NCBI RefSeq assembly: GCF_944324525.1
Contig: NZ_CALUWS010000022.1
Span: forward strand, 1 to 48,574
DNA: 48,574 nt
Source: an uncultured Desulfovibrio sp.
GTDB taxonomy: Bacteria; Desulfobacterota; Desulfovibrionia; Desulfovibrionales; Desulfovibrionaceae
Reading direction: 5' to 3'
The translations under genes were made by a program, and so were the position numbers. Under the pieces are notes generated by a model. That model saw nothing but the letters and a program-made list of their open reading frames with translations. It did no database searches and was not told the origin of the DNA. This document shows positions 5,663 to 40,758 of this stretch, one piece after another. Each line of letters starts with the position of its first letter. Position 1 is the first letter of the stretch.

Positions 5663-5777
5663 GGCCGGACGGCACAGCGCCGCCCGGCCGAAAGTGAGCG
5701 GAAAAAGCGCGCTTTTTCCGCGAAACGCCAGGCCGTATGCTTTGAAACGCAACGCGTTTCAAACGGGAAATGCTCTA
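5663..5777 (-). repeat. Family A structured repeat, copy 1
   Basis: The block has three nested hairpins: GGCGGC/GCCGCC-type, the palindrome GCGGAAAAAGC/GCTTTTTCCGC, and TTTGAAACGC/GCGTTTCAAA. It ends GAAATGCTCTAG. The terminal CTA (5775-5777) is read on the minus strand as the TAG stop of the cement protein gene. Other copies: 12455-12535, 14722-14835, 29701-29810 and 40619-40758. Confidence 0.8.
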
Positions 5778-6206
5778 GCGGACCTGCAGGGCCGGCTCGT
5801 AGGGCAGATCCTCCTCACGGGTGAGGGCGGCAAAAAGGCTCCCCTTGCTGACGGTCTGCGAGGACTGCGGCGTGGGCACGAGGTGCAGGCGCAGCCAGCC
5901 CTTGCGCACGCCCTGCGGCACATGCCGCCAGCCCACGCGCGCGCCGGCGGTAAGGGCCGTGCCGGCAATGGTCAGGCTGGCGTCGGGGACGTCCGTCCAC
6001 GAGCCGTCGCTGCTGTCGGCCTCCTGCAGAGTGATGGCCAGCGTGTCCAGCTCGGCGGGATCGAAGGCTTCGGGCACGCTGATGCGGAAGGGGATGGGCT
6101 CCATGCGGCCGGGCAGGCGCAGGGCCGTGAGCGGCACGGCGCGGCTGTCGGTCTCGGCGGTGAGGGGGCCTTCATGGAAGACGGACGTGCTGTCGATAAT
6201 GGCCAT
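5775..6206 (-). CDS. Bbp16-like capsid cement protein
   Basis: A 143-residue protein beginning MAIIDSTSVFHEGPLTA. The beta-rich sequence and its place directly after the major capsid gene match the Bbp16 family of capsid decoration (cement) proteins of BPP-1-like podoviruses, which stabilise the expanded head. A hydrophobic/aromatic C-terminal half carries GWRHVPQGVRKGWLRLHLV. The stop codon TAG is the terminus of a family A repeat, so the natural C-terminus may have been set by that insertion. Confidence comes from gene order plus overall resemblance rather than a catalytic motif. Confidence 0.75.
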   Translation of the reverse strand: MAIIDSTSVFHEGPLTAETDSRAVPLTALRLPGRMEPIPFRISVPEAFDPAELDTLAITLQEADSSDGSWTDVPDASLTIAGTALTAGARVGWRHVPQGVRKGWLRLHLVPTPQSSQTVSKGSLFAALTREEDLPYEPALQVR

Positions 6207-6308
6207 GATGCTGTCCTTTGTGGTTGGAAGGTGGCGGGAAACGGCCCGTCGGCGGCGTGACGGCCCGAGGGCTGAGTCTCGGAAAGAAATGCCCCTTGGT
6301 GGAACAGT

Positions 6309-7301
6309 CTAAACGGGCTGTTCGGTGGAAAGGATGGCGTCGCACTGGCGCACGGGGCGGCCGTGCAGGACGGGGACGGCCTGGGCGGCGAAGAATTCGC
6401 CGTACTGGAGCTGCACCTGTCCGGCGTCGGAGTTCTGGAGTTCCAGCGCGGTCAGCGCGTCGGCATTGCCGTACCAGATGGCTTTCTGGCGCAGGTGCTG
6501 GGGCATCTTGTTCTTGGCCTCGATGGTCAGCTTCTGCAGATCGATGAAGCCCTCCTCGCCCTTGCGCTTGCCGAGCGCGGCCACCGGCAGGTTGGCGATG
6601 CGCACCACGGCCCGCCAGTCGCGGACGGCAAGACCGCAGCGCCAGTTGTATTTGTCGCCCGTGACCTGATATTTGCGGCCGTTGTCGTCCTGCGCCATGT
6701 AGGTATGGAGGTCTTCGTGCGAGAGGCCGCCGGTGCTGTCCTTGGGATAGATGCCGTGTACGGCCTGCGCGCCCCAGGAGACCAGCCAGAGGGAGGTGCA
6801 GCCGCCTTCGTCCGTGCCGCCCGCATCCAGCACATTTTCGGCGTCCTTGGCCGGATAGCGCATGGCCAGCCCGTTGAAGGCGTCGGGATTGAGGTTGCTG
6901 TCCCCGTAGAAGAGGGTGGAGGCCACCTTCTGGCGCATGGCTTCGGCAAAGGCGATGCCCTCGCTCATGCGGAACGCCTTGTCGCGGCTGCCGTAGAGGC
7001 GCAGCTCTTCCACGTCCAGCTCCATGATGGCTTCCAGGATGCCGCAGCTCTCCTTGACCTGCGACCACTGGGACTTGGCGGGCGGCGTGCCCTGATAGAG
7101 CCTGCGCCAGTAGATCTCCGGCAGGCCGGTGCGGATGCGGGTCAGGTGGCCGTCGGACTGGTTGGCCTCCATCCACGGCACGTCATCCATGATGTCGTTG
7201 GTGCGGTTCATGAGTTCGATGATCTGGCCGGCCTTCTCGCCGCGGTAGAACTGTTCCATTTCCGCCAGCGTGACGACGAAACCAAGAGACGAATTGGCCA
7301 T
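6309..7301 (-). CDS. Major capsid protein (BPP-1 Bbp17-like)
   Basis: A 330-residue head protein (MANSSLGFVVTLAEMEQFYRG). It carries sections typical of this podoviral capsid family: LMNRTNDIMDDVPWMEAN, ILEAIMELDVEELRLYGSRDKAFRMSEG and KAIWYGNADALTALELQ. There is no N-terminal protease or scaffold extension. An AGGAGG ribosome site precedes the ATG, as expected for the most abundant virion protein. A hairpin at 7372-7390 separates it from the scaffold gene and a 102-nt gap separates it from the cement gene, so its dosage may be tuned independently. The assignment is firm by gene order and family resemblance. Confidence 0.88.
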   Translation of the reverse strand: MANSSLGFVVTLAEMEQFYRGEKAGQIIELMNRTNDIMDDVPWMEANQSDGHLTRIRTGLPEIYWRRLYQGTPPAKSQWSQVKESCGILEAIMELDVEELRLYGSRDKAFRMSEGIAFAEAMRQKVASTLFYGDSNLNPDAFNGLAMRYPAKDAENVLDAGGTDEGGCTSLWLVSWGAQAVHGIYPKDSTGGLSHEDLHTYMAQDDNGRKYQVTGDKYNWRCGLAVRDWRAVVRIANLPVAALGKRKGEEGFIDLQKLTIEAKNKMPQHLRQKAIWYGNADALTALELQNSDAGQVQLQYGEFFAAQAVPVLHGRPVRQCDAILSTEQPV

Positions 7302-7371
7302 GAGAAAACCTCCTGAAAGGAAAAGGGTACGAAAAGTGAGGGGTGCCGGAGGGCGGGCAGGGGAGTTGACG

Positions 7372-7390
7372 GGCAGGGCCGTTCCCTGCC
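7372..7390 (-). terminator. Hairpin between scaffold and capsid genes
   Basis: GGCAGGG (7372-7378) and CCCTGCC (7384-7390) form a 7-bp stem with a 5-nt loop, 8 nt downstream of the scaffold gene stop. There is no clear T-run, so it may be partial attenuation or an RNA-processing or stability element ahead of the capsid gene. Confidence 0.45.
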
Positions 7391-7397
7391 GCGGGGC

Positions 7398-7931
7398 TTA
7401 CGGACGCGAGCTCCAGCCCGCGTACATGCGTTCTTCCAGCGGCTGCAGGGGCAGGTCGGGCCGGGATTGCGGCAGGCTGTCCTCCATGAGTCCGTCGGCC
7501 ATGCGGTTGAAGAAACGGATCACGGCCGGATGGTTGCCGTAGCCGCTTTCCTCCAGCAGACGGCCGATGCTGCCGTCCGTGTCGAAGCGTTCCAGGGCGA
7601 GCTGGGCGCGGGCCACCGTCCCGGCCAGCCTGTCGCCGCCCATTTCCGGGTCGGCGGCCACATCCCGCCGCCACTGTTCCACCTGCTCCCGCCACTGCTG
7701 GCGGCGGCTGTTGTCCTGCGCTTCCAGACGCTGGCGGAAAAGGGCTTCCTGCGCCTCCGCCGGAGACTGTCCGGCATCGGCAGTCTGCGCTTCCGGCGCG
7801 ACGGGGGCGGCATCGTCCACGCCCGGCAGGAAGGGCGGCAGGGGCAGCGCGCCGCCGGGCGCGGCAGCGGTCTCCGGGGTCGGGCTTGTCGGGATCGAGG
7901 TTTCCGGGACGGTGAACGGGGCATCAGACAT
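7398..7931 (-). CDS. Scaffold-like head assembly protein
   Basis: A 177-residue protein. The N-terminal 70 residues are disordered (Pro/Ala/Thr-rich, MSDAPFTVPETSIPTSPTPE). The middle part is charged and helical (QEALFRQRLEAQDNSRRQQWREQVEQWRRDV), and the C-terminal helical part contains GYGNHPAVIRFFNRMADGLMEDSL, a pattern common in podoviral head-assembly (scaffold) proteins. Its position between the portal side and the capsid gene agrees. The start at 7931 has GGAGG nine bases upstream and overlaps the end of the Bbp19-like gene by 8 nt. Upstream in-frame extension is not needed. The scaffold role is inferred. Confidence 0.7.
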   Translation of the reverse strand: MSDAPFTVPETSIPTSPTPETAAAPGGALPLPPFLPGVDDAAPVAPEAQTADAGQSPAEAQEALFRQRLEAQDNSRRQQWREQVEQWRRDVAADPEMGGDRLAGTVARAQLALERFDTDGSIGRLLEESGYGNHPAVIRFFNRMADGLMEDSLPQSRPDLPLQPLEERMYAGWSSRP

Positions 7932-8247
7932 CGTGTTCCTCCGGGGTAAGAAGTTGGGCCACACGGGCCGGACAAGCCTCCTGCACCAGCCGCAGGAGGC
8001 GCAGCCCCAGCACGCGGCGTCCTTCGCGGGCGTACAGGCTGCCGGGGGCATCCTGCGGGCCGGGGTCGCTGGCTTCGAAGCAGTGACAAGAGGTCAGCAG
8101 CCAGCGCAGCAGGGAGCGGCCCTGACGGTTTTCCGCCAGCAGGGCGGCGGCCTGCCGCAGGTTCTCCTCCCAGCGCCGCAGCCCGTCGGGGGGGACGGTC
8201 ACGGCGGCGTCCTCGTTCTGGGGGAACAGGCCGGTCGGGCTGTTCAT
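7924..8247 (-). CDS. Bbp19-like small phage protein
   Basis: A 107-residue protein with the Bbp19 family pattern: a helix ENRQGRSLLRWLLTSCHCF, a linker, then AREGRRVLGLRLLRLVQEACPARVAQLL. This family sits between portal and scaffold genes in BPP-1-like podoviruses, as here. Its function is not established, and the short length suggests a head-assembly or packaging accessory. It is coupled to the portal gene by an ATGA overlap (8244-8247) and overlaps the scaffold start by 8 nt. Confidence 0.75.
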   Translation of the reverse strand: MNSPTGLFPQNEDAAVTVPPDGLRRWEENLRQAAALLAENRQGRSLLRWLLTSCHCFEASDPGPQDAPGSLYAREGRRVLGLRLLRLVQEACPARVAQLLTPEEHDV

Positions 8248-10133
8248 GCGCGGCCTCCCGCGGTTTCCGCCGCAGGTGCGGGCGCGGCGTTTGCCGTCGT
8301 TCCCGGCGCGGGTCCCGTCTCGGCCGCCGGGCCAGACGGACGGTCAGGCGTGGGGGCTGGCGCGACGGAGGGCGTTCCGGGCAGGGCGGACGGCAGCAGG
8401 GCCTGCAGGCCCAGGGCGATGCCGTCCAGCAGGTTCCGTTTTTCCCCGCTCAGCGTGATCTCGCTCTGGGAGAGGGTCTTGCCCAGCTCCGCGGCCTGTT
8501 CGAGCTGCTTGAGCAGGCTTTGCTGTTGCTGGGCTTCCGCGCGGGCCTGCCGGAGCTGTTCGCGCTCCTGCCGGGAGCGGGTGATGCTCACGGGCAGGCC
8601 CAGATTCCGGGCATAGGTATCCAGCATGTTGTCCACGTCCAGACTGTCCAGCGCTTCCGGCCAGGCGGCCGCGGCCCGCAGGGTCAGGCTGAGGTACTGA
8701 TCCGTGGCGCCGCTGCCCACGAGCTTCTGGGCCTGGGCCAGCAGGGAGACGAATTCCACCTTGAGCCGCCGTCCGACGAGTTCCGGCGGGCAGGGCGGCA
8801 GCATGTCCAGCCGCTGCATGAGGCTGAAGGTCCTGTCGATGAGCGGGATGAACAGTTCATCGTGCAGGCGTTCCAGCACCGGGCCGATGAGCACCATCTT
8901 TTCCTCTTCGCGGGCGGCGATCTCGCTGGCCGTGACCTTGGAGCGTCCTTCGAGGATGAGGCGGAACAGATCGTTGTAGAGCCCGGCGCGGATCTGTTCC
9001 TGCACGGCCTGCATGGCCTGCCGGGACTGGGCCAGCTCCGGCTTGAGCTGGAGCAGGGGCGTGGCGGCCTGCGGGTTCTGACCGGGCAGGCTGTCCACAT
9101 AGTTGATGCCCCCCGGCGTGAGGTCGAGCCCCACGGAGCGCAGGCCGGCGGACACGCTCATGGGCGGGTCCACCGCCTTGTGGATGGCCTTGAGGGTGGT
9201 GATGCCCATCTGTTGCAGCATGCGGCAGTCGGGCAGGGCGTCCATGGCCGGGGAGCGGCCGTAGACTTCGTTTCCCGCCACGTCCCAGCGCGGCCCGAAA
9301 CCGGGGAAGTCGCAGAAGCCCGACACGCGCAACGGGGTGGCATTGCCCTCCCTGCCTTCCAGCCAGTAGACCGAGGCCACGGGCATGGCCGCCGCCGTGA
9401 GCAGGCCGGGCCGCCGTCCCCGCCGGGGGAAGACGGCATGGATGACCGTCTGCCGCTGATCCGGCGTGCGCCGCGCCGCCTGCCGCAGGCTGTCCGGCAG
9501 GACATGCGGGCCGAAGGCTTCCTCGATCTGCCGCAGGCTCATGGACGAGCGGCGGAACACCGTATCCACCCGGCGGGCGGCATCGGTATCCAGCGCATAT
9601 TCCCCGGCGCAGAGCGGCAGGAAGCGGAAGCCGTGGCGCGGGTCGGCCAGCTCGAAGACGAAGGCCGTGCCGAAGGTCCCCAGCTCGGCATAGAGCGTGT
9701 GCATGGCGTTGTAGAAGTTGGAACGCTGGAACACCACACGCATGCGCCGCTCCACTTCATCCAGATAGAGCTGGCCGGCGCGACTGTCGGCAAGATCGGC
9801 ATCATCGAGGGAGAGACGGAACCACTGCCGGGCCGGACTGGTCATGCCGCCGTGCAGGCCCGCCGCCAGGGTGCGCATGGCCAGGATGCCGGTGGCGTCC
9901 ACCAGTCGCTTGTTGAGCAGGGGGCGGTTCTCGTCTTCCGGGCCGAGGCGGCAGCGCGTGGGCAGGAAGTGTTCCGCCAGACTCTGCCAGGCGCTGTCCC
10001 AGGGCGAGCGGCGATCCAGCAGAGCGCGCCAGCGCCGGGCCAGAGCGGGCACGTCGGCCCGCGCCGCCAGTCCTTCATGGTCGGGAGGCGGCCCAGCGAG
10101 GGCGCGCGGGCGGTTTTCGGGGGAAAGGGCCAT
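8244..10133 (-). CDS. Head-to-tail connecting (portal) protein
   Basis: A 629-residue protein matching the Head-tail_con portal family of short-tailed phages. Recognisable blocks include LLDRRSPWDSAWQSLAEHFLP near the start, GLHGGMTSPARQWF (about residues 92-105), QRSNFYNAMHTLYAELGTFG, and ITTLKAIHKAVDPPMSV with LEGRSKVTASEIAAREEEK in the clip/stem region. The last 80 residues are Ala/Pro/Thr-rich and probably disordered. The protein forms the dodecameric ring at the packaging vertex, through which TerL drives DNA and to which the tail attaches. It overlaps the Bbp19-like gene by 4 nt. Confidence 0.92.
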   Translation of the reverse strand: MALSPENRPRALAGPPPDHEGLAARADVPALARRWRALLDRRSPWDSAWQSLAEHFLPTRCRLGPEDENRPLLNKRLVDATGILAMRTLAAGLHGGMTSPARQWFRLSLDDADLADSRAGQLYLDEVERRMRVVFQRSNFYNAMHTLYAELGTFGTAFVFELADPRHGFRFLPLCAGEYALDTDAARRVDTVFRRSSMSLRQIEEAFGPHVLPDSLRQAARRTPDQRQTVIHAVFPRRGRRPGLLTAAAMPVASVYWLEGREGNATPLRVSGFCDFPGFGPRWDVAGNEVYGRSPAMDALPDCRMLQQMGITTLKAIHKAVDPPMSVSAGLRSVGLDLTPGGINYVDSLPGQNPQAATPLLQLKPELAQSRQAMQAVQEQIRAGLYNDLFRLILEGRSKVTASEIAAREEEKMVLIGPVLERLHDELFIPLIDRTFSLMQRLDMLPPCPPELVGRRLKVEFVSLLAQAQKLVGSGATDQYLSLTLRAAAAWPEALDSLDVDNMLDTYARNLGLPVSITRSRQEREQLRQARAEAQQQQSLLKQLEQAAELGKTLSQSEITLSGEKRNLLDGIALGLQALLPSALPGTPSVAPAPTPDRPSGPAAETGPAPGTTANAAPAPAAETAGGRA

Positions 10134-10145
10134 GTGACCGTTCTC

Positions 10146-10358
10146 CTACTGACCCAGCAGGGTCTTGCCGCTCGCCCCTTCGGAACGCAGCGGATTGGTG
10201 TAAATGGCGCCGCTGATGCCGGCGGCCTTGCTGGCCTTGTCCTTCTGGCTCTGGCGGGCGGCCGTGGCGGCTTCGGTGACGGGTTTCTGCACTTCCTGCT
10301 TGGGCGCAGGGGTGACGGCGGGGACGCTGGGCGTGCTGGGGCCTCCTCCAAATCCCAT
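10146..10358 (-). CDS. Small portal-linked phage protein
   Basis: A 70-residue protein (MGFGGGPSTPSVPAVTPAPK) with a Gly/Pro-rich start, a charged helix, then GISGAIYTNPLRSEGASGKTLLGQ. From memory, short proteins ending in a TLLG-type tail are found just upstream of portal genes in many podoviruses, with no known function; possibly a portal- or terminase-associated peptide. The start is chosen because AAGGAGG lies 7 bases upstream; a longer open frame exists but reads in a shadow frame of the neighbouring gene. Confidence 0.65.
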   Translation of the reverse strand: MGFGGGPSTPSVPAVTPAPKQEVQKPVTEAATAARQSQKDKASKAAGISGAIYTNPLRSEGASGKTLLGQ

Positions 10359-10404
10359 AAGAACCTCCTTGGGCGTATGATGGTGAAGGGAAGACAGGGC
10401 CGCC

Positions 10405-11016
10405 TCAGGCGGCCGGAGGATCGTCCTGTCCGGCGGCGGCCAGACTGTCCGGCGTGCAGCAGACCAGCACGCCGTCCACATGGCGGCGGCGACGGGCCAG
10501 CCAGCAGGCGCGCGGCAGGCGGGCCAGCTCGCGGAAGCCGCAGGCCGTGGCCAGCCGCCAGGCGTGGGCATTGCTCACCGGACAAAGACCCATGATGGCG
10601 GAGACGTCCGTCTGGGCGAACATCCACTGGAAAGCGCCCCGGGCGATGGGCACGGCCTGGGAAAAGTGCCGCCGGAAGACCGTGAAGTCGAATTCCGCCA
10701 CCTGTCCGCGCCAGCCGCTGAACAGGCCTACGGCCAGGATGCCGTCGGTATCCGGCAGGGGCGGCGCGGTGCTGTCCGACGGCCTGAGGACAGGGGCGGC
10801 AGGGGCGGAGACCGCCGCGGATGGCGTGGCGGCCGCCTGTTCGCAGACCAGGAGCAGGCCGTGGCGGGGCCGGGTGATGTGCCGCCAGCGGCGCAGGCTG
10901 GGCCGCTGACAGGCGTACATGGCGCAGGGGGTGAGCCCTTCCTCCCGCATGCGGAAGAACAGGGCGTCGCGTTCCGCCTGTTGCAGGACGGGGCGATAGC
11001 GGTAGGGCGTATCCAT
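10405..11016 (-). CDS. GNAT-like phage protein in packaging cluster
   Basis: A 203-residue protein starting MDTPYRYRPVLQQAERDALFF. It has the outline of a GCN5-like acetyltransferase fold: LAVGLFSGWRGQVAEFDFTVFRR as the central strands, RGAFQWMFAQ, then VSNAHAWRLATACGFRELARLPRACWL, where a short helix precedes a Cys-Gly-Phe turn as in GNAT C-termini (xxA...xGFxxxg). A classical R/Q-x-x-G-x-A acetyl-CoA loop is not clear, so catalysis is uncertain. Residues 80-115 form a low-complexity Ala/Pro insertion. The gene starts 1 nt after terL stops, so it is translationally coupled to packaging. GNAT-like genes between terminase and portal are known in podoviruses; their role is unknown. Confidence 0.6.
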   Translation of the reverse strand: MDTPYRYRPVLQQAERDALFFRMREEGLTPCAMYACQRPSLRRWRHITRPRHGLLLVCEQAAATPSAAVSAPAAPVLRPSDSTAPPLPDTDGILAVGLFSGWRGQVAEFDFTVFRRHFSQAVPIARGAFQWMFAQTDVSAIMGLCPVSNAHAWRLATACGFRELARLPRACWLARRRRHVDGVLVCCTPDSLAAAGQDDPPAA

Positions 11017-11017
11017 A

Positions 11018-12433: not shown

Positions 12434-12454
12434 GCGTTTTTCCGGGCTGAGGTT

Positions 12455-12535
12455 GGAACGTTTTGCCTTTTTTCAAAGGCAAAACGCGAGGCCGTATGGT
12501 TTGAAGCGCGGAGCGTTTCAAACGGGAAATGTTCC
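12455..12535. repeat. Family A short repeat, copy 2
   Basis: Begins GGAACGTTTTGCC, includes AAAGGCAAAACGCGAGGCCGTATGG and the stem TTTGAAGCGC/GCGTTTCAAA, and ends GGGAAATGTTCC. The termini GGAAC and GTTCC pair, replacing the AGAGC/GCTCT pair of other copies (compensatory). It lies directly upstream of the terL start. I have not tied it to a stop codon. Confidence 0.75.
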
Positions 12536-12673
12536 ACGGCCGGTTTTCACAAATTTTACAAATTATTTAGGTATATTAGATAAGTCATGTATACAAACTA
12601 TGCTTACCCTTAGGGGAAACCTCGTCCACCGTATCCTCCCCTGATAAAAGCGCGCTGGGGAAGGGATGGGGGC

Positions 12674-12800
12674 TTGGGGGGAAGGGGAACCCGCTCCCGC
12701 GCCGGCGGCGACCGAAAGGCGGCCGCAGGCCGTGCCCGTTAGGCGACGAAGGAGCCTTACGGGCATCGACAGCAGAGCGAGGGGTTCCCCTTCCCCCCAA
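12674..12800. repeat. Family C hairpin with 73-bp unit in the loop
   Basis: Outer arms TTGGGGGGAAGGGGAACCC (12674-12692) and GGGGTTCCCCTTCCCCCCAA (12781-12800) are complementary. The loop holds an inverted copy of the 73-bp unit with its own stem GCCCGT/ACGGGC. The upstream flank AAAAGCGCGCTGGGGAAGGG matches that of the 4971-5024 hairpin. Confidence 0.75.
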
Positions 12801-12811
12801 ACAGGCGACTA

Positions 12812-13485: not shown

Positions 13486-13502
13486 GAAAAGATCCTCACG
13501 GG

Positions 13503-13814: not shown

Positions 13815-13816
13815 GG

Positions 13817-14497: not shown

Positions 14498-14983
14498 GGC
14501 TGCTCTCCTGGTTGCGGTGGGCGGGAGGATCCCGCGGACAGGTGCACCATGCCCGAAAGGGCGTCCGGCGTAAGACTGAAAGACTTCTGTAGCGTCGGGA
14601 CGTGGCGGGGCGCGGTTTTGCGGACGGCGGGAAAAGGCGGAGGATGAAGGGATGGCGGCCGGGACCGCCCCGGCGGCAAACTGCCCGCCGGAGCGGGCAG
14701 GGATGGAGGAGGGCTCGTGTCCCACACCATACGGCATGTCGTTTCGCGGAAGAAACGCGGTCTCTCCGTTTGGTCCGGGCCGGACGGCGCTGTGCCGCCG
14801 CTTCGCGATTGCCGTTTTCAAAGGCAAAACGCTCCAGGGCAATTCTCCATTGAAAATGGGGATTGCTCTGGTCGTCGCGCGAGCGACTACCTGCAACCGA
14901 ACATACGGAAAAACCACGCTTTTTCCGTAGTGTGAGGGCAGCCTCAGCAGGGAAATCGGACACGATTTCCCTGCGAATCCGTT
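14498..14983. other. 486-bp gene-free stretch between regulator and lysis genes
   Basis: No credible gene. Positions 14500-14720 are plain GC-rich DNA that could hold a late promoter for the endolysin-to-tail operon, the expected target of the Mor-like activator encoded upstream. The rest (14722-14987) consists of family A and family B repeats back to back. Confidence 0.6.
14722..14835 (+). repeat. Family A repeat, copy 3 (inverted relative to dnaJ copy)
   Basis: Read on the minus strand it gives GGAGCGTTTTGCC, GCGGCGGCACAGCGCCG, a GCGTTTCTTCCGCGAAAC block and GCCGTATGGTGTG, in the same order as the copy at 40619-40758. The far end is truncated or diverged. Confidence 0.7.
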
Positions 14984-14988
14984 CTAAG
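14833..14988. repeat. Family B structured repeat, copy 1
   Basis: An element of about 150 bp with stems CCATT/AATGG, TACGGAAAAA/TTTTTCCGTA and GGGAAATCG/CGATTTCCC, ending GAATCCGTTCTAAG. The terminal CTA (14984-14986) is the TAG stop of the Mor-like gene on the minus strand. The second copy is at 29807-29960. Confidence 0.8.
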
Positions 14989-15676
14989 TTTCCGGCGTTT
15001 CGTCCGGGAGCAGGTCAGGGAGGGCGGCAGCGGCTTCGGGCAGGGCGTCGCTGGTCTTGAGTATCTGCCAGATGCGCCGCTCGCTGAGGCCCTCCTGCCG
15101 GGCCAGATGGCGCACGGCGGCGCAGCCGGAAGCGCCGGCGGCGGTATGGCGGCTGAACTGCCGGACAAGATGGATGCGGCGCACGGCGGCCAGCAGGAAG
15201 CGGCAGCGCGGGACATAGATGACCGTTCCGCCGAAGGTGTCCATCAGGCGGCGCAGGCAGTCCGTGCCCAGCGTCTGCCGCAGGGGATGGTCCTCCGGCG
15301 GCAGGCGGCGGGGGATGCGCAGGGACTGGCCGCCGTAGTGACGCAGCAGCCGGGTAAAGGCCGTGCCGTCCTCGTCAAGGACGCGCAGGATGAGTCGGGC
15401 ATTGGGGCTGAGGTGTCGCCGCAGGGCCTGCCATATCCCGGTGGCCGCGGTGTCGGTATAGGGAGGGGGGATGGGGGATGTCGCGGCGGGTCGCGTGGCG
15501 GCGGGACGAGCGGGCGGGGGCGGGACGGCGGCCGCCGCTGCAGGACGTTCCCGACGGCGGATGCCGGCACTGTGCGCAAGGACAGGCCGTTGCGCTCTTG
15601 CGGGAAGGCGATTAAGCGGCGAACCGCCGTCAGGCTGACGGGGATCCGCCGGATGGTCGCACCTACTGGACGACAT
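14984..15676 (-). CDS. Mor-like late transcription activator
   Basis: A 230-residue protein. The N-terminal 90 residues are low-complexity (Pro/Ala/Arg-rich). The C-terminal half resembles the Mor/C activator family of Mu-like phages: RLMDTFGGTVIYVPRCRFLLAAVRRIHLVRQF, then an HTH AVRHLARQEGLSERRIWQILKTSD. The GGTxxYxP strand and the HTH are the family hallmarks. Such proteins recruit RNA polymerase to late promoters. Start: ATG at 15676 with GGGAGG upstream, overlapping the previous ORF by 14 nt; the longer open frame upstream reads in a shadow frame. The stop TAG is the end of repeat B, so the C-terminus could be altered by that insertion. Confidence 0.7.
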   Translation of the reverse strand: MSSSRCDHPADPRQPDGGSPLNRLPARAQRPVLAHSAGIRRRERPAAAAAVPPPPARPAATRPAATSPIPPPYTDTAATGIWQALRRHLSPNARLILRVLDEDGTAFTRLLRHYGGQSLRIPRRLPPEDHPLRQTLGTDCLRRLMDTFGGTVIYVPRCRFLLAAVRRIHLVRQFSRHTAAGASGCAAVRHLARQEGLSERRIWQILKTSDALPEAAAALPDLLPDETPET

Positions 15677-17297: not shown

Positions 17298-17681
17298 ATG
17301 CGTCGTTTCCTTCCCGCTCTCGCTCTTGTTCTTGGTCTTTCCTCTCCCGCCTTTGCCGCGTATGATGGTCCGAGCAGCGGCTATGGCGGCTTCCAGGGGC
17401 CGACGTCCTCGGTGGGGGTCACCACCGTGGCCAAGGCGCTCAAGGCCTGGGACGATGCCCCGGTGGTGCTGACCGGCAACATCGTGCAGCGCATGGCCGG
17501 CAGCGACGACAAGTACGTGTTCCGGGACGGCACCGGTCAGATCGTCGTGGACATCGACCATGAGCTTTTCTGGGGCAAGACGGTGACGCCCGCCAATACC
17601 GTGCGCATTTCCGGCGATGTGGACAAGGACATGTTCGATCCCACCAAGATCGACGTCAAGTTCCTTGAAGTTCTGAAGTAG
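17298..17681 (+). CDS. Secreted BOF/YgiW-family OB-fold protein 1
   Basis: A 127-residue protein with a signal peptide (MRRFLPALALVLGLSSPAFA, cleavage after AFA). The mature start has YGGFQGP, as in E. coli YgiW. The OB-fold follows: TVAKALKAWDDAPVVLTGNIVQRM, SDDKYVFRDGTGQIVVDID, TVTPANTVRISGDVDKD, KIDVKFLEVLK. The family is periplasmic. YgiW/VisP is linked to stress and virulence signalling and lies beside qseBC in E. coli, and here too a two-component pair follows. Start: ATG 17298 with GGAGG upstream; an upstream ATG at 17253 would mask the signal peptide. It is the first of four paralogues on one strand. Confidence 0.85.
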   Translation: MRRFLPALALVLGLSSPAFAAYDGPSSGYGGFQGPTSSVGVTTVAKALKAWDDAPVVLTGNIVQRMAGSDDKYVFRDGTGQIVVDIDHELFWGKTVTPANTVRISGDVDKDMFDPTKIDVKFLEVLK

Positions 17682-17710
17682 GATCCCAAACCAAGAAAGA
17701 GGTGGCCTGT

Positions 17711-18133
17711 ATGAAATTCTTCCCCCTTCTCCTGCTGGCGATGTCGCTGAGCGTTCCCGCCTTTGCCGCGCAAGCGGACGGCACTCCGCCGAATCCGGCG
17801 GCCGCTCCGGGCTATCAGGGCCCGTCGGCTTCATACGGCGGTTTCCAGGGGCCCACCGGCGGAACGGACAATGATACCGTGGCCAAGGCGCTCAAGGCCT
17901 GGGACGAGTCCCCCGTGGTGCTGACCGGCAATATCGTGGAACGCCTGGCCGGCAGCGACGACAAATACATGTTCCGCGACGCCACCGGCCAGATCATCGT
18001 GGACATCGACCATGAGCTTTTCTGGGGCAAGACCGTGACGCCGGCCAATACCGTGCGCATCGCCGGAGAGGTGGACAAGGAGATGTTCGAGGCCACCAAG
18101 ATTGACGTCAAGTTCCTGGAAGTCATAAAGTGA
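17711..18133 (+). CDS. Secreted BOF/YgiW-family OB-fold protein 2
   Basis: A 140-residue protein with signal peptide MKFFPLLLLAMSLSVPAFA. A longer linker (QADGTPPNPAAAPGY) precedes the YGGFQGPTGG motif. The OB-fold core is almost identical to paralogue 1 (VTPANTVRI, SDDKYMFRDATGQIIVDIDHELFWGK). Start at ATG 17711; a GTG at 17702 is in frame but the signal peptide fits the ATG, with AGAGG upstream. The gene lies 29 nt after paralogue 1, so they are co-transcribed. Strong core identity with different N-termini points to recent duplication with divergence of the surface-exposed N-terminus. Confidence 0.85.
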   Translation: MKFFPLLLLAMSLSVPAFAAQADGTPPNPAAAPGYQGPSASYGGFQGPTGGTDNDTVAKALKAWDESPVVLTGNIVERLAGSDDKYMFRDATGQIIVDIDHELFWGKTVTPANTVRIAGEVDKEMFEATKIDVKFLEVIK

Positions 18134-18167
18134 CGCCCTCGGAAACCAGATCAAAAAGGAGTTTGTC

Positions 18168-18560
18168 ATGAAGATTCTGCTTTCTTCCCTGCTGGTGCTG
18201 GCGCTGGCCGCTCCCGCCCTTGCTCAACCGGGCTTCCAGGGGCCGGGGGCCGGACAGGGGGGCGGTTTTCAGGGACCGACGGCGGGCATACAGGCCGATA
18301 CCGTGGCCAAGGCGCTCAAATGCTGGGATGATGCGCCGGTCATCCTCACGGGCAACATCATGCAGCGCTATGCCGGCAGCGACGACAAGTATCTTTTCAG
18401 GGACGCCACCGGCGAGATCATCGTGGAGATCGACTTCGGCGTCTTTGCCGGCCGCACGGTCACCCCGGAGACCCGGGTGCGCCTTTCCGGCAAGATGGAC
18501 AAGGACGGCATGATGGAGCCGGCCAAGGTGGACGTGAAGGTGCTGGAAATCCTCAAGTGA
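18168..18560 (+). CDS. Secreted BOF/YgiW-family OB-fold protein 3
   Basis: A 130-residue protein with signal peptide MKILLSSLLVLALAAPALA. The mature start carries two GFQGP motifs (GFQGPGAGQGGGFQGPTAG). The OB-fold contains TVAKALKCWDDAPVILTGNIMQRY, SDDKYLFRDATGEIIVEIDFGVFAGRTVTPETRVRL and ends VDVKVLEILK. It differs from paralogues 1 and 2 at the strand after VEID and has an unpaired Cys (CWDD). It follows paralogue 2 by 34 nt, with AAGGAG in front. Confidence 0.85.
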   Translation: MKILLSSLLVLALAAPALAQPGFQGPGAGQGGGFQGPTAGIQADTVAKALKCWDDAPVILTGNIMQRYAGSDDKYLFRDATGEIIVEIDFGVFAGRTVTPETRVRLSGKMDKDGMMEPAKVDVKVLEILK

Positions 18561-29700: not shown

Positions 29701-29810
29701 GTCGGCACTAACGCCGTCCGGCTCGAAGTGAGCGGAAAAACGCGTTTTTTCGCGAGACGACGGGTGATATGGTTTGAAACCCAAAGCGTTTCAAACTGAA
29801 AATGCGCTAG
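29701..29810 (+). repeat. Family A repeat, copy 4
   Basis: GTCGGCACTAACGCCGTCCG, AGTGAGCGGAAAAACGCG and the stem TTTGAAACCC/GCGTTTCAAA appear in family order, ending GAAAATGCGCTAG. The terminal CTAG is shared with the start of the following family B copy. Confidence 0.75.
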
Positions 29811-29960
29811 AGCAATTCCACATTGAAAATGTGGCTTGATCGAGTAGTCGCAAGTGCGACTGCTCGCAACCGAACACACGGAAAAACCCCGCTTTTCCCG
29901 TAGTGTGAGGCAGCGTCAGCAGGGAAATTGGACACAATTTCCCTGCGAATCCGCTCTAAG
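29807..29960 (+). repeat. Family B structured repeat, copy 2
   Basis: Begins CTAGAGCAATTCC and ends GAATCCGCTCTAAG, with stems ACATT/AATGT, AGTCGC/GCGACT and GGGAAATTG/CAATTTCCC. Relative to copy 1 (14833-14988), both arms of the last stem changed together (C-G to T-A), and the first stem also covaries. It ends 52 nt before the glycosyltransferase ATG. Confidence 0.8.
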
Positions 29961-31448: not shown

Positions 31449-31574
31449 CGGAGCGGACAGTGCGAAACGTGCGACTGCCCCGGCTGCCACGAACGGCCCG
31501 TCTCCGCGTTGCTTCCCCGCCCGTCCCCGCCGCTTCGGCGGCAACGTCCGCAAAGGCGGACAGGGGGCGAGCGC

Positions 31575-34200: not shown

Positions 34201-34231
34201 TGATGTGATTATTGGGGATATAGAGGTTGTT

Positions 34232-34283
34232 GCGAGGGGGAGAGGGGAACCGTTTTGAAAAACGGTTCCCCTCTCCCCCTCGC
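34232..34283. repeat. Perfect 25-bp hairpin (family D), copy 2
   Basis: GCGAGGGGGAGAGGGGAACC-GTTTT pairs perfectly with its complement (34259-34283) around a GA. The flank GCTCCCCCTCTCCCTTCCCC follows. It is the inverted partner of the element at 1-71. Confidence 0.8.
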
Positions 34284-34380
34284 GCTCCCCCTCTCCCTTC
34301 CCCAAACTTTTACCGGGGTCCATGACGGACGACGTGACTCGCCAAGCTGACGCGTGGCCGACACGTCCCCCGGCGATACG

Positions 34381-34430
34381 AAAAAGCACAAACCGGACAG
34401 AGAAAAACCGTCCGGCCTGTGTTTTTGTAC
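34381..34430. terminator. Bidirectional terminator-like hairpin
   Basis: AAAAAGCACA.ACCGGAC and GTCCGG..TGTGTTTTTG form a stem with A-rich bases before and a T-run after, so it could end transcripts from both the membrane-protein gene and the desulfidase gene. Confidence 0.6.
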
Positions 34431-34520
34431 AGAGTTTGGCTGGCTTGCGGTCAGGCGACGCCTTCCCATGCCGTGACGTCCGACGTCTGGACAAATAAAG
34501 TTTTTTGGAGGGGAGGGGTT

Positions 34521-34562
34521 CGGGGAGGGGGACCTTTTGTCCACAAAAGGTCCCCCTCCCCG
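34521..34562. repeat. Perfect 20-bp G/C-armed hairpin (family D-like)
   Basis: CGGGGAGGGGGACCTTTTGT-CC-ACAAAAGGTCC..., a perfect 20-bp stem 20 nt past the desulfidase stop, flanked by AAAGTTTTTTGGAGGGGAGG as in the other members. Confidence 0.75.
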
Positions 34563-34582
34563 AAAAGAGACTCAACGAAACA

Positions 34583-35872: not shown

Positions 35873-37095
35873 GCCTGCTCCGATGCGCCGTTTTGCAACG
35901 GGCCGAGCTCGCCGTTACGATTGAACATGCCTTCCAGCATGAGGGTCAGCGCGCCGTCGCCGGTGACGTTGCAGGCGGTGCCGAAGCTGTCCTGCAGGGC
36001 GAAGATGGCGATGAGCAGGGCCACGCCGTTCTGGTCAAAGCCCAGCACGCCGGTCACGATGCCCAGCGAGGCCACCACCGTACCGCCGGGCACGCCGGGC
36101 GCGCCCACGGCAAAGATGCCCAGCAGCACGCAGAACAGCAGCATCACGCCCACGCTGGGCAGGCTGCCGTAGAGCATGAGATGCAGGGTCATGCAGAAGA
36201 AGGTCTCCGTGAGCACGGAACCGCAGAGATGGACGGTCGCGCCCAGCGGGACCATGAATTCCACCATGTTGCGGCTCAGCACGCGGGACTTGCGGGCGCA
36301 TTCCAGAGCCACGGGCAGAGTGGCCGCGCTGGACATGGTGCCCACGGCGGTGAGGTAGGCGGGCGTATAGTGGCGGCAGACCTCAAAGGGATTGCGGCCG
36401 GAGAGGATGCCGCCGATGCCGTAGAGCAGGGCCAGCCAGATGAAGTGCCCCACGATGACGATGAGCACCATGGAGACGAAGACCGGCAGATGCAGGCTGA
36501 GGGAACCTTCATAGGCGAGGCCGAGGAAGGAGAGGCCCACGAAGAAGGGCAGGATGGGGATCATGATGCGCACCACCAGCGCGCTCATGACGCGTTCCAG
36601 CTCGCTGAAAAGACGGCTCAGGGTCTCGGACCTGGTCCAGGCGATGGCCACGCCGAACAGCAACGCCAGCACCAGCGCGCTCATGACGCTGAACAGCGGC
36701 GGGATGTCCAGACGGAAGACCATTTCCGGCAGCTTGCGCAGGGTTTCCGTCTCCTTGGCCACGGAAAGATGCGGGATGATGGCGTAGCCGGAGATGGTGG
36801 AAAAGAGCGCCGCCCCCAGCGACGAGGCATAGGCCAGCGCCACGGCGGTGAAGAGGATCTTGCTGGCGTTCTGGCCGAGGCGCACGATGGCCGGCGTGAT
36901 GAAGCCGACGATGACCAGCGGCACGAGGAAGAAGATGATCTGTCCGAAAATGTGCCGCAACGACACGACCACGTCCATGACATGGTTGAGCGAACTGTCG
37001 GCATTATTGCCGATGTACGTGCCGACGAGCGCACCGATGACGATGCCGGCCAGCAGTTTGAGGATCAGGGAGAAGTCCCCCGCCTTGGCAGCCAT
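35869..37095 (-). CDS. DAACS-family amino-acid:cation symporter
   Basis: A 408-residue transporter of the dicarboxylate/amino-acid:cation symporter family. Re-entrant loop 1 holds TMSSAATLPVAL and re-entrant loop 2 GAPGVPGGTVV. The TM8 ligand motif is LQDSFGTACNVTGDGA, with the conserved Asp and the NVTGD block. Length and about 8 TM helices are normal. Start: ATG 37095 with GGGAGG in front; the longer frame upstream has no function. It overlaps the desulfidase start (ATGA), which suggests that it imports cysteine, cystine or serine. The substrate is inferred from context only. Confidence 0.87.
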   Translation of the reverse strand: MAAKAGDFSLILKLLAGIVIGALVGTYIGNNADSSLNHVMDVVVSLRHIFGQIIFFLVPLVIVGFITPAIVRLGQNASKILFTAVALAYASSLGAALFSTISGYAIIPHLSVAKETETLRKLPEMVFRLDIPPLFSVMSALVLALLFGVAIAWTRSETLSRLFSELERVMSALVVRIMIPILPFFVGLSFLGLAYEGSLSLHLPVFVSMVLIVIVGHFIWLALLYGIGGILSGRNPFEVCRHYTPAYLTAVGTMSSAATLPVALECARKSRVLSRNMVEFMVPLGATVHLCGSVLTETFFCMTLHLMLYGSLPSVGVMLLFCVLLGIFAVGAPGVPGGTVVASLGIVTGVLGFDQNGVALLIAIFALQDSFGTACNVTGDGALTLMLEGMFNRNGELGPLQNGASEQA

Positions 37096-37115
37096 ACTGC
37101 ACCTCCCAAAATAAA

Positions 37116-37145
37116 GTTCCGGCCCGCGAGAGTACGAGCCGGAAC
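37116..37145 (-). terminator. Hairpin before the symporter gene
   Basis: GTTCCGGC (37116-37123) pairs with GCCGGAAC (37138-37145). On the minus strand it is followed by TTTATTTT and then the GGGAGG ribosome site. It may terminate the peptidase transcript or attenuate the symporter operon. Confidence 0.5.
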
Positions 37146-37203
37146 CTGTATAGCGCACAGCGCCGGGGCACGCAACGCGGCGGCCCCCCTGGAGCATTAC
37201 GCT

Positions 37204-38100
37204 CTATTCGAGGATATAGCGCATGGGATTGACCGGTACGCCGTTGAGGATGACCTCATAGTGCAGGTGCGGGCCGGTGGTGCGGCCGGTCATGCCGATG
37301 TAGCCGATGACCTCGCCGCGCTTGACGTACTGGCCGGGCTGCACGACGAAGCGCTGCATGTGGGCGTACTTGGTGACGATGCCGCCGCCGTGGTTGATCT
37401 CCACACAGAGGCCATAGGCCCCGTCATGTCCGGCCTTGAGCACGGTCCCCTGCGCGGTGGCCATGATGGGCGTGCCCGTGCGGTTGGAGATGTCCAGCCC
37501 CTTGTGGAATTGCCGCCTGCCGCCGCCGAAGGGGGCGGAGCGCGCGCCGAAACCCGAGGTCACGAAGCCCACCACCGGCCAGATGGTCGGCATGGTGGAG
37601 AGGGCGTCGCGGTTGTCGCGCAGGGCATGGAGCAGATCCTGCTGGCGCACCTCTTCCAGCCGCACGGCGTCGGAGAGGGAATCGAGAAAGTCCTGCATCT
37701 TGCGGGCCGCCAGTTCCTGCCGGTGCATGGGCAGGTAGGAATGGGCGAAACTGCCCACCTGATCGTCCCCCACCTCGGCGGGGTCCTGCTCCATGTTCAT
37801 CATGATGCGCAGCTTGCTGTCGAAATTGCGTACCCGCTGCAGATCCTGCGTCACCTCGCCCAGCTTGCCGCCAAGCAGGGAAAGCTGCCGGCGCTGATCC
37901 TCCAGACGCCGTTCGGTATTGGTGAGGGATTCCTCAAGATGCCGGTTCTGCAGCCATTCCCGCCACAACCACACGTTGCAGCCCACCAGCGCCAGCACGA
38001 TGATGCAGGAGACGAAGCCGAACCAGCCCCGCAGCCGCACATTGCGGCTGCCGCTGCGCCCTTCGCGGAAGATGACGATATGGTACTTGCCGAGGAGCAT
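37204..38100 (-). CDS. M23 (LytM-type) zinc endopeptidase, membrane-anchored
   Basis: A 298-residue protein. One TM is at about 26-47, then a coiled coil (residues 52-95, ERRLEDQRRQLSLLGGKLGE) and a C-terminal M23 domain with zinc ligands H199, D203 (QFHKGLDIS) and H280 (GPHLHYE, H278 in the same motif), plus H247 in KYAHM. It should cut peptide crosslinks in the periplasmic peptidoglycan or act as a divisome-type activator. The intact metal site suggests real activity. It starts 34 nt after ttcA ends, with AGAAGG in front, and is likely co-transcribed with ttcA. Confidence 0.87.
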   Translation of the reverse strand: MLLGKYHIVIFREGRSGSRNVRLRGWFGFVSCIIVLALVGCNVWLWREWLQNRHLEESLTNTERRLEDQRRQLSLLGGKLGEVTQDLQRVRNFDSKLRIMMNMEQDPAEVGDDQVGSFAHSYLPMHRQELAARKMQDFLDSLSDAVRLEEVRQQDLLHALRDNRDALSTMPTIWPVVGFVTSGFGARSAPFGGGRRQFHKGLDISNRTGTPIMATAQGTVLKAGHDGAYGLCVEINHGGGIVTKYAHMQRFVVQPGQYVKRGEVIGYIGMTGRTTGPHLHYEVILNGVPVNPMRYILE

Positions 38101-38134
38101 ACCTTCTGCTTCTAAGCCGCCATGCGGGCCGCTG

Positions 38135-38944
38135 TCAACGCACGCTTCCGCCGCGGGCCCTGTCGCCGGGAGCGGAAGCGTCCTGCGCCGCGTCGCGCGT
38201 CAGGGCATCGTTGCGGTGCTTGTCCAGCTGCCAGCGGGTGAGCGCGTTGCCGATGCAGCGGCGCGAATCCTTGGCCACGGCGTAGAGATGCTCCAGCGTG
38301 GCGCTCATGTCGCTGCGGGCCGAATGCCCCGCCGAGGGGCAGACGTTGGCCCAGATGGGCAGTTCCCATTGCTGGGCGGCCTTGCGGATGTACTTCTTTT
38401 CCACGAGCAGCAGCGGACGGATGAGCCGCAGCTTGCCGCCGAAAAAGGGTTCGTTCATGCTCATGCCGTCCACACGGCCGTTGCGGCAGAGGTTGAGGAA
38501 GAAGGTCTCCACGAGATCGTCGGCATTGTGGCCCAGCGCCAGATGGGTCAGGCGGTAGCGGGCGCAGAGCTCGAACAGCCGCTTGCGGCGCAGCCAGGCG
38601 CAACGGAAGCAGGGAGAACGGCGCTGGTTCTCCTCCGAATGCGCGTGCGGGCCGTAGTCCGTCACTTCCAGATGGGAGGCGATGCCGTGCCGTGCGAGCC
38701 AGGGCAGGAGCGCGGCGTGGCTTTGCGGATCGAAGCCCGGATTGAGATGTATGGCCATGAGCTCGAAGCGGAAGGGGACGATGCCCTGCCGGATGTGCAG
38801 GCTCTTCAGCAGCACGAAGCTGTCCACGCCGCCGGAGACGGCCACTCCCACCCGGCAGCCCGGCCAGAGCATGCCCGCCTGTTGCATGGCCTTGCCCGCG
38901 CCCTTGACGCAGACCTCCTGGGCATAGGATCGTTTTTCGCGCAT
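38135..38944 (-). CDS. ttcA: TtcA-type tRNA 2-thiocytidine synthetase
   Basis: A 269-residue PP-loop ATPase. The PP-loop VAVSGGVDSF spans residues 37-42, and a CxxC pair SPCFRCAW (C112, C115) with ALGHNADDLVETFFLN follows. A further Cys in ANVCPSAG (about residue 210) could complete the Fe-S site of TtcA. The enzyme 2-thiolates cytidine 32 of some tRNAs. Start: ATG 38944 with AAGGGG upstream; longer frames lack function. Gene order ttcA then M23 is tight. A general PP-loop sulphurtransferase remains possible, but the CxxC spacing supports TtcA. Confidence 0.82.
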   Translation of the reverse strand: MREKRSYAQEVCVKGAGKAMQQAGMLWPGCRVGVAVSGGVDSFVLLKSLHIRQGIVPFRFELMAIHLNPGFDPQSHAALLPWLARHGIASHLEVTDYGPHAHSEENQRRSPCFRCAWLRRKRLFELCARYRLTHLALGHNADDLVETFFLNLCRNGRVDGMSMNEPFFGGKLRLIRPLLLVEKKYIRKAAQQWELPIWANVCPSAGHSARSDMSATLEHLYAVAKDSRRCIGNALTRWQLDKHRNDALTRDAAQDASAPGDRARGGSVR

Positions 38945-39080
38945 GGTTCCCCTTGCCTGCGGGCGGTTCCCGCAGGGCGGCATGTCGCATGAAGGCCCGC
39001 CCCGCGTCAAGAGGCGAAGCGCCTGCCGCAAGGAGCGGATCGCCCGGCGCGCCGCCACACGGCGGGAAGGCCATCTTCCC

Positions 39081-39109
39081 TTGACAGAAGAGGGGGAGAC
39101 ACATAAGAT
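39081..39109 (+). promoter_or_regulatory. Sigma70-type promoter of rpoZ-dnaJ
   Basis: A perfect TTGACA (39081-39086), a 17-base spacer and TAAGAT (39104-39109) point to rpoZ. The predicted leader is about 148 nt. This is the clearest promoter in the window. Confidence 0.75.
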
Positions 39110-39263
39110 TGTGCGTTACAACAAATTTGAGCCTTGCCGCCGCGTCCGTTCCCGGGCACGGCTCTTTTCGTCCCTGCCCCGGACGGGAACGGCCCGGCAA
39201 GGCGGGTGAGGCCCTGTCGGAGCCGTCCTGCGACAGCCCCGCGCCAACCAAGAAGGAGGACGC

Positions 39264-39503
39264 ATGGCCCGTATTACTGTGGAAGATTGTCAGGAACGCG
39301 TGGACAACCGCTTTCTGCTGGTGCAGATGGCCATCAAGCGCGTGCGCCAGTACCGCGAAGGTTACGAGGCGCTGGTGGACAGCCGCAACAAGGAAGTGGT
39401 GACCGCCCTGCGCGAGATCGCCGCCGGCAAGGTCATGCCCGAGGACATGAGCCTGTACACGCCGCTGCCTGAAGGTCAAGAGGCCCCCAACAGCGAAGGC
39501 TAG
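39264..39503 (+). CDS. rpoZ: RNA polymerase omega subunit
   Basis: A 79-residue protein beginning [29 protein letters not shown], the typical omega opening. The region [21 protein letters not shown] is also characteristic. It binds the beta' subunit and helps assemble the polymerase. AAGGAGG lies seven bases upstream. It is followed after 2 nt by dnaJ, so both are on one transcript from the promoter at 39081. Confidence 0.93.
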
Positions 39504-39505
39504 TC

Positions 39506-40621
39506 ATGGCGCAACGCGATTATTACGAAGTGCTGGGCGTGGCCCGCGACGCTTCGGAAGACGAGATAAAAAAGGCCTACCGCAAGCTCGCCATGCAGTA
39601 TCACCCGGACCGCAACCCCGGGGATGCCGAAGCCGAACGCAAGTTCAAGGAAGCCGCGGAAGCCTACGACGTGCTGCGCGATGCCGACAGGCGCGCCCGC
39701 TATGACCGCTTCGGCCATGCCGGCCTCCAGGGCGGCGCGGGCGGTTTTGGCAGTACGGACGACATCTTCGCCCATTTCAGCGATATTTTCGGCGATCTGT
39801 TCGGCTTTGGCGGCGGCACGGGCCGCAGCGGCCCCCGGGCCATGGCCGGGGCCGACCTGCGCTACAATCTGGAGATCAGCTTCGAGCAGGCGGCCACCGG
39901 CGCGGAGATCCCCCTCAAGCTGCCCCGTCATGAGCCATGTCCCGAATGCCAGGGCAGCGGCGCCGCGCCCGGCACCAAACCGGAGACCTGCCGCCAGTGC
40001 AACGGTACGGGGCAGGTCCGCCGCACGCAGGGCTTTTTCCAACTGGCCATGCCCTGCCCCGCCTGCCACGGCACGGGCCAGGTCATCGCCACGCCCTGCC
40101 CCCGCTGCAAGGGAGACGGCGTGGTGGAGAACGTGCGGGAGATCGTGGTGCGCATCCCGGCCGGGGTGGACACGGGCACGCGCCTGCGCGTGCGCGGCGA
40201 AGGGGAAGCCGGCGTGCACGGCGGCCCGCCCGGCGACCTCTATGTGGTGCTGCATGTGGCCCCGAGCAAGCATTATGACCGTCAGGGGCAGGATCTCATC
40301 TATGAGTGCTCCATCAGCTTCGTGCAGGCCGCGCTGGGCCATCGCGTCGAAGTGCCGGGCCTCAACGGCCCCTTGCCGCTGGAGATCCCCAAGGGCATCC
40401 AGAGCGGCACGCCCCTGCGCCTCAAGGGCGAAGGCATGCCCTATCCCGGCCGCAGCCAGCGCGGGGATCTGCTGGTGGTGGTCAAGGTGCTGACGCCCAC
40501 CAAGCTTTCCGAACGGCAGGAGGAACTGCTGCGCGAGTTCGAATCCCTGGGCGAGGAAAGCCTGCTCGACAAGGCCAAGAAAGTCGGCAAGAAGATCGGC
40601 AAGAAGATCGGGCTCGACTAG
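39506..40621 (+). CDS. dnaJ: Chaperone DnaJ (type A, with zinc finger)
   Basis: A 371-residue full-length DnaJ. The J domain is residues 1-72 with the HPD motif ([10 protein letters not shown]), then a Gly/Phe-rich linker ([29 protein letters not shown]). The four zinc-ribbon repeats are [24 protein letters not shown] and CPRCKGDG. The substrate-binding beta domains contain [20 protein letters not shown], and the tail is lysine-rich ([14 protein letters not shown]). It delivers substrates to DnaK and stimulates its ATPase; the DnaK gene is not in the window. The stop TAG is the first three bases of the family A repeat, so the lysine-rich tail may have been reshaped by that insertion. Confidence 0.94.
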
Positions 40622-40758
40622 AGCGTTTTATCAAAAACAAACGCGAGGCGGCGGCACAGCGCCGCCCGGCCCAAAGTGAGCGGAAAAACCGCGTTTTTTC
40701 CGCGAAACGCCAGGCCGTATGGTGTGAAACGCAACGCGCTTCACATTGGAAATGCTCT
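40619..40758 (+). repeat. Family A repeat, full-length copy 5
   Basis: Begins TAGAGCGTTTT and ends GGAAATGCTCT. It contains GCGGCGGCACAGCGCCGC, GCGGAAAAACCGCG with TTTTTTCCGC, and TGTGAAACGC/GCGCTTCACA. In the last stem T-A of other copies became G-C in both arms. The opening TAG is the dnaJ stop codon. Confidence 0.85.

Follow-up and report, generated by a model that had tools for sequence, protein, structure and literature searches.

The DNA analysed here (the window, 48,574 nt) is contig 22 in the 2.9-Mb, 93-contig draft assembly of an uncultured Desulfovibrio sp. The window contains five copies of a short repeat, family A, and two copies of a second repeat, family B. All seven were listed by an earlier sequence-only reading, and all are recovered as profile matches (Table 1). 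In three cases the TAG at the edge of an element is the stop codon of the adjacent gene. These stops lie at 5775, at 14984 and, for dnaJ, at 40619. The evidence below indicates that A and B are very probably non-autonomous mini-transposons that insert at TA, preferentially within YTAR, duplicate the TA and regenerate TAA or TAG stop codons as TAG.

The three stop codons stand as first read, and the gene names fared unequally. The gene at 14984-15676 (minus strand) encodes a Mor family protein (41.8 bits against a cut-off of 24.9). The product of gene 5775-6206 (minus strand) had been called a cement protein, a label that is only suggested by a Bbp16 match of 23.8 bits, below the Pfam cut-off of 27.1. 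At both of its sites in the window, family B adjoins family A (14834/14839 and 29805/29810).

Table 1. Family A and B copies in the window and the features that they abut. A slash marks the boundary between element and flanking DNA.
Feature	Position	Strand	Description
Family A copy	5669-5775	+	Element positions 38-144, left part missing; right GCTC/TA abuts the stop of gene 5775-6206
TAG stop of gene 5775-6206	5775-5777	-	TA plus the element's G
Family A fragment	12466-12534	+	Element positions 79-144, right part; right end without TA
Family A copy	14717-14834	-	Element positions 1-119, left part; abuts a B copy
Family B copy	14839-14986	+	Right end gives the TAG stop (14984-14986, minus) of gene 14984-15676
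Family A copy	29701-29805	+	Element positions 37-142, right part; right TA (29808-29809) common with the B copy
Family B copy	29810-29958	+	TA on both sides: CTA/GAGC...GCTC/TAA
dnaJ	39506-40621	+	C-terminus ...GKKIGLD; TAG stop 40619-40621 at the element junction
Family A copy	40621-40757	+	Both ends present, directly 3' of dnaJ; right end TC instead of TA

Family A measures 144 nt between two flanking TA steps and comprises four successive hairpins. The length first given, 80-140 bp, mixed states of decay: the copies are there, but four of the five in the window are incomplete (69-118 nt). Intact A and B ends read YTA/GAGC...GCTC/TAR. The terminal inverted repeats of the A consensus are short (GAGCGTTTT at one end versus GAGCATTTT at the other), and B termini have little inverted repeat past GAGC.

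We identified 165 places in the window's own genome that match a 22-nt core of family A with at most three mismatches, versus none for the reversed pattern. Of these places 100 were listed, and surrounding DNA was taken for 95 of the 100. A profile built on 19 seeds gave 135 A matches, or 128 once repeats of one place were removed. This set still includes some matches that overlap on opposite strands, as well as the B copy at window position 14839. Stricter cleaning, in which strands were merged and both a match below 20 bits and that B copy were taken out, left 123. Family B has 42 matches in the same genome. The bare motif YTAGAGC is unenriched in the window (4 versus 4.56 in shuffles), and CTAGAGC occurs 95 times in the genome, fewer than its reversed control (703). 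These motifs occur at or below chance; the evidence for the elements lies in the long matches.

An A match was found in 23 of 79 genomes of the genus. Among 80 of at least 113 rows, exact matches to the 22-mer in named genomes all come from metagenome-assembled genomes of Desulfovibrionaceae, nearly all labelled Desulfovibrio and one Mailhella. Family A had no match in public phages and plasmids; the 22-mer occurs in one viral contig. Just one of 249 A matches in other genomes lies wholly within a called gene, and none of the 128 in the own genome does. The proposal that the elements are mobile holds, as copies are many and dispersed, TA is found on both sides, and close relatives have the same gene end minus the element. 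A and B fit the criteria for miniature inverted-repeat transposable elements (MITEs): they are short, non-coding, multi-copy and dispersed between genes, with a TA duplication and terminal inverted repeats.

The junction TAG is the stop codon of a called gene in 33 of the 128 A matches, 22 of them by the left end of the element and 11 by the right. The count is 33 of 121 among matches with at least one intact end, 24 of 75 among those with both, and 32 of 123 in the cleaned set. Of the TA steps available to an insertion (noncoding ones plus those of stops), 147 of 1743 (8.4%) lie in stop codons, against which the excess is strong (binomial p 5e-9 for 33/128 and 6e-9 for 32/123). A replicate drew on 113 loci from other Desulfovibrionaceae genomes, found by the exact 22-mer, for which at least 113 are listed. 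We tested 249 of 268 non-overlapping matches, after excluding those with too short a flank, with neither end intact or with flanks that were identical; 54 of the 249 sit on stops, versus 6.7% of available TAs. The bias toward stop codons is thus present both genome-wide and in related genomes. Family B behaves similarly. Thirty of its 42 matches had loci, four truncated copies were excluded, and 9 of the 26 copies examined end on a stop, one of the nine on a weak gene call. TA lies to the left of 18 and to the right of 16 of these 26 copies. In the sample of DNA chosen around A copies, TAG accounts for 131 of 320 called stops, 33 followed by AGC and 12 by GGC.

TA is found on both sides of 33 of the 75 A copies that retain both ends. 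The outer bases differ between sides (for example TTA...TAG or ATA...TAA), which excludes a 4-bp duplication and identifies TA as the repeated unit. For a 2-bp duplication other than TA we make no claim (4 matching non-TA pairs versus a shuffle mean of 1.9, p 0.12). In 20 insertions away from stops, with the two sides pooled, the base before TA is T in 18 cases, C in 15, A in 4 and G in 3; the background frequencies are A.34, G.28, T.24 and C.15. With T or C in 33 of 40 cases versus 39% of the background, the target is YTAR.

This target goes far toward explaining the stop codons. A weighting for YTAR, learned from non-stop insertions and combined with exclusion from genes, predicts 21% of copies at stops in the own genome and 17.3% in the replicate. 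Observed values are 22-26% of all copies and 30-39% of copies with both TAs intact. The stop habit is thus mostly the result of YTAR target choice and exclusion from genes. The earlier suggestion that the elements prefer stop codons survives as a count, but once YTAR is allowed for, the residual is small (p 0.01-0.12).

Gene ends with and without the element were compared for dnaJ and for 16 further genes whose stop lies at an A end. Four close relatives could provide 64 ends of these 16 genes, of which 57 were read. Judged by eye, all 57 proteins stop at the same position whether or not an element is present. Their stop codons are 47 TAG (17 of them with an A match no more than 5 nt away), 9 TAA (one with an A match) and 1 TGA. 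The gene at locus L033 reads GAC TA, element, TAG CTGTCGGGG in the own genome; the element-free relatives G068 and G067 read GAC TAG CTGTCGGGG and GAC TAA CTGTCGGGG. Both flanks are also recognisable by eye in element-free relatives of the L013 gene (TAA in G067, TGA in G070) and the L012 gene (TAG in G068, TAA in G067 and G070). A rubredoxin-like gene is element-free in G067 and the gene at L017:42466 in G068, each with TAG. A single TA stands at the insertion place in element-free relatives of five genes.

The codon past the element points the same way. In stop copies with both TAs intact it is TAR in 13 of 13 cases in the own genome and 17 of 18 in relatives (30 of 31 in total), versus 33 of 40 and 67 of 84 at the same position of non-stop copies. 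The kept C-termini and the TAR past the element argue for insertion into an existing TAA or TAG, with TA plus the element's first base G forming the new TAG. The sequence-only reading had offered chance or the creation of stop codons; the evidence favours this third option, insertion into stops that were already there. Creation of new stops, with truncation of the gene, could draw on the TAG at the element edge and on one replicate stop copy with TAT on the far side. As a general rule it is refuted by the 57 unchanged C-termini, and we give it next to no weight.

We therefore arrive at the following model, parts of which are directly visible in the copies. An element enters a TA step and duplicates it, giving YTA/GAGC...GCTC/TAR, as the copy ends and the element-free relatives show. 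Approached from outside, each end begins with G. The TA of a TAA or TAG plus this G yields an in-frame TAG and an unchanged protein, with the old stop codon left past the element; stop copies and their orthologs show this arrangement. TGA has no TA and presumably could not be hit in this way. Stops are over-represented because TAs inside genes are closed, presumably by selection, and because TAA and TAG fit YTAR well, which the weighting shows to cover most of the excess.

Several points weigh against this account or limit its reach. First, genes were called with a purpose-built codon model trained on the same DNA in place of a published caller, and 3 of 32 stop genes score 25 or less in it. 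Second, insertions inherited by several species are counted more than once in the replicate. Third, TA is absent on one or both sides of 42 of the 75 two-ended copies, which we take as decay, a reading that is unproven, and three copies flanked by AA/AA and one by AT/AT suggest that the target may be looser. Fourth, the ortholog comparison left out the window's two phage genes, and the replicate copy followed by TAT departs from the pattern. Finally, some excess at stops persists after YTAR weighting. In the own genome p is 0.12 for 33/128, 0.065 for 33/121, 0.019 for 24/75 and 0.013 for the 13 of 33 copies with TA on both sides (0.11 for the cleaned 32/123), and in the replicate it is 0.042 for 54/249 and, where both TAs are intact (18 of 60 copies), 0.011. 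Target choice may thus be only part of the story, with a small further preference for stops possible.

This residual, present in both data sets, would be expected if the transposition machinery favoured gene 3' ends beyond YTAR, attracted for example by terminator structure, supercoiling or emerging RNA. The distribution of A ends around stops is consistent with such attraction: 33 lie at distance 0 and 13 at 1-50 nt, versus 142 and 179 available TAs (odds ratio 3.2, p 0.0005, without YTAR weighting). However, the weighting removes most of the excess, and just 3 of 18 insertions of IS5-type elements (described below) fall on called stops, one of these being a weak call. We consider active attraction unlikely.

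Selection might instead keep copies at stops. A single A copy folds at -73.6 kcal/mol (z -7.8) and a single B copy at -64.7 kcal/mol (z -6.9). Across 61 A copies, 9 of 33 predicted pairs have two-sided changes of some kind, and hairpin 1 has many (at one pair U-A 32, C-G 21 and U-G 5). Such hairpins could act as a portable 3' end, through mRNA protection or RNase cleavage, and the strong folds and two-sided changes fit this idea. Most copies, however, lie away from stops; transposon ends and arm-to-arm correction would likewise lead to conserved palindromes, and the copies are related. We hold a role as a portable 3' end to be rather improbable. Conservation of the hairpins may reflect RNA function, transposase binding or arm-to-arm correction; as the copies are related, we claim no function. 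Units that consist of a hairpin alone, about 24-33 nt long with TA/GAGC ends, were seen at L124 (about 1412-1437), L128 (about 759-785), L228 and L235. They are possibly the smallest mobile, or a remnant, form of family A.

For insertion at TA as proposed here, the mover would most likely be a DDE transposase with TA specificity of the IS5/IS427 type, ranked above IS630. The IS5/IS427 type is favoured because these genomes contain such elements, which have TA on either side within YTAR and start with G. We identified 18 IS5-type insertions of the genus with both ends, bounded by TA, which was a search criterion. Their size, a two-part reading frame and PF13340/PF01609, which we take to be families linked to the IS427 group, suggest that they belong to that group. 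Transposase loci came from PF01609 in the own genome (3 matches), PF13340 in 61 genomes (at least 30 loci) and PF01609 in 12 genomes (24 matches), and their ends were scanned by script. The IS5-type ends found (GGGGCTGTTTC, GATAGTGTC, GGCTCAGGACTC, GGACCTGTTAACACTA and the like) differ from A and B ends. Counting against this choice of mover, no insertion sequence (IS) with GAGC ends was found among the loci examined for these two transposase families, which came from 61 genomes for PF13340 and from 12 for PF01609. Termini in common with an autonomous element are frequent among MITEs but are no requirement for the class. In the absence of a matching IS5/IS427 terminal repeat, A and B are not classed as derived from those IS.

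Mobilisation by an IS630/Tc1-mariner transposase, as proposed for the pneumococcal repeat RUP, would also fit a TA duplication, and RUP with IS630-Spn1 is a precedent (PMC2229807, excerpt). The IS630 DDE_3 domain (PF13358) has no match in the own genome, the sole genome searched, though a partner could be extinct; we hold this route to be rather improbable.

The sequence-only reading had also called the repeats REP-like. Repetitive extragenic palindromes (REPs), or the bacterial interspersed mosaic elements (BIMEs) that they form, moved by a REP-associated tyrosine transposase (RAYT), would share with A and B a palindromic, high-copy, intergenic nature, and GTAG REPs reportedly often give TAG stops (PMC3733652, excerpt). 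In this RAYT sense the term is not supported. G is the rarest base before TAG (3 of 40, non-stop insertions, sides pooled), so there is no GTAG tag, and the 144-nt length and the single TA in element-free relatives likewise speak against it. In the own genome Y1_Tnp has a single match, a gene that we presume to be IS200-like and that has no A match nearby. No RAYT flanked by repeats was found among five Y1 loci from 12 genomes, one of which, the G009 gene (L190), has an A match near it. Movement by a RAYT is very improbable.

Some stop codons have received different elements in different species. For dnaJ, which has a match in 77 of 79 genomes, we examined 30 loci. At the stop junction, G000 and G009 have family A; G068 and G007 have the end of a GGYCTGTYAACAC repeat. 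The junction of G022 carries an IS5-type end and that of G064 an A-like hairpin end. In G025, TAA is followed directly by an AGCG...CGCTC hairpin. The close relatives G067 and G070 have TAA with no element at the stop, with A-like sequence lying further downstream in G070; in G011 the stop is TGA. A gene that we take, by recognition alone, to have a TypA-like end carries a full A in G000, and in G009 and G070 it carries hairpin-only units. At other genes the element varies with the species, between the GGYCTG repeat and A.

IS5-type elements enter the same positions. The own-genome copy on contig 19 lies inside the TAG stop of the preceding gene, and 4 of the 18 insertions adjoin an end of A or B type. 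A single insertion appears to be represented by both L092 and L181, from two genomes. At L108 (the same insertion as L168), L167, L173 and L178 the IS lies inside the terminal TA of an A/B-type element, as though every inserted copy supplied another CTAG to target. We tentatively propose, as an idea that may well prove too broad, that these unrelated families of gut Desulfovibrio (IS5-type elements, families A and B, hairpin-only units and the GGYCTGTYAACAC repeat) follow one rule, a TA target plus a terminal G. TAA and TAG would then be safe landing sites and recurrent hot spots, TAA would turn into TAG over time, and each insertion would supply a fresh CTAG.

Further repeats were seen in the window. 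Pieces of a third, longer repeat lie at 4779-4815, 12728-12801 and 48443-48574; at other loci this repeat adjoins the end TAGGGCCTGTTAACAC, which resembles the IS5-type element ends in L124 (G007). At positions 17424-18555, three units that begin at intervals of 452 and 424 nt (89% and 65% alike) lie in consecutive called genes (17412-18560). A purine-rich 49-nt repeat at 1-49 has an inverted copy at 34253-34301 (86% complementary).

Repeats that supply stop codons have been described before. According to an excerpt of PMC3049150, 36 coding sequences of Streptococcus pneumoniae, including dnaJ, have a stop codon encoded by a BOX element, and orthologs gave no strong evidence of truncation. In these respects BOX resembles A and B. 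BOX is modular and of other sequence, however, and in that excerpt the stop effect is not tied to a TA target, whereas for A and B the data show which target is used, that its TA is duplicated and which codon stood there originally. GTAG REPs are likewise palindromic and high-copy, with termini that often give TAG to flanking genes, but as the same excerpt of PMC3733652 describes them, they are short GTAG-tagged stem-loops tied to RAYTs, and neither feature was found for A and B.

Among bacterial MITEs, those that have terminal TA and duplicate TA form a standard class (PMC2229807, excerpt). RUP, Correia and ERIC/RU-1 elements share with A and B a small size, structure, terminal TA and TA duplication (excerpts of PMC2229807 and PMC2759123). 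A RU-1 behind an Erwinia amidase gene apparently removed the normal stop and lengthened the protein (PMC2759123, excerpt), the opposite outcome to that of A and B. IS427 group elements of the IS5 family in Paracoccus have mostly 2-bp direct repeats and measure 832-865 bp in the rows given (PMC3281130, excerpt). The 2-bp repeat is shared by the IS5-type elements of the genus; unlike A and B these IS are autonomous, and none was found with GAGC ends. The main text of a 2024 review of prokaryotic MITEs (PMC10969869) contains neither 'stop codon' nor 'Desulfovibrio'. Searches of an open-access library for Desulfovibrio repeats of this type listed no description of A or B, and a search there turned up no paper that combines IS427 with stop codons and CTAG or YTAR. 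Stop-supplying repeats are thus already published; A and B are new MITE families for which the account of how stops are hit and survive is clear.

These results describe two high-copy repeat families of gut Desulfovibrio. They also suggest a simple, testable reason why the ends of BOX and REP elements supply stop codons, an effect that the excerpts cited leave unexplained: an element that targets TA and begins with G has a neutral effect in TAA and TAG stops, and TGA is no target. TAG usage and gene 3' ends in such genomes may be partly shaped by mobile elements.

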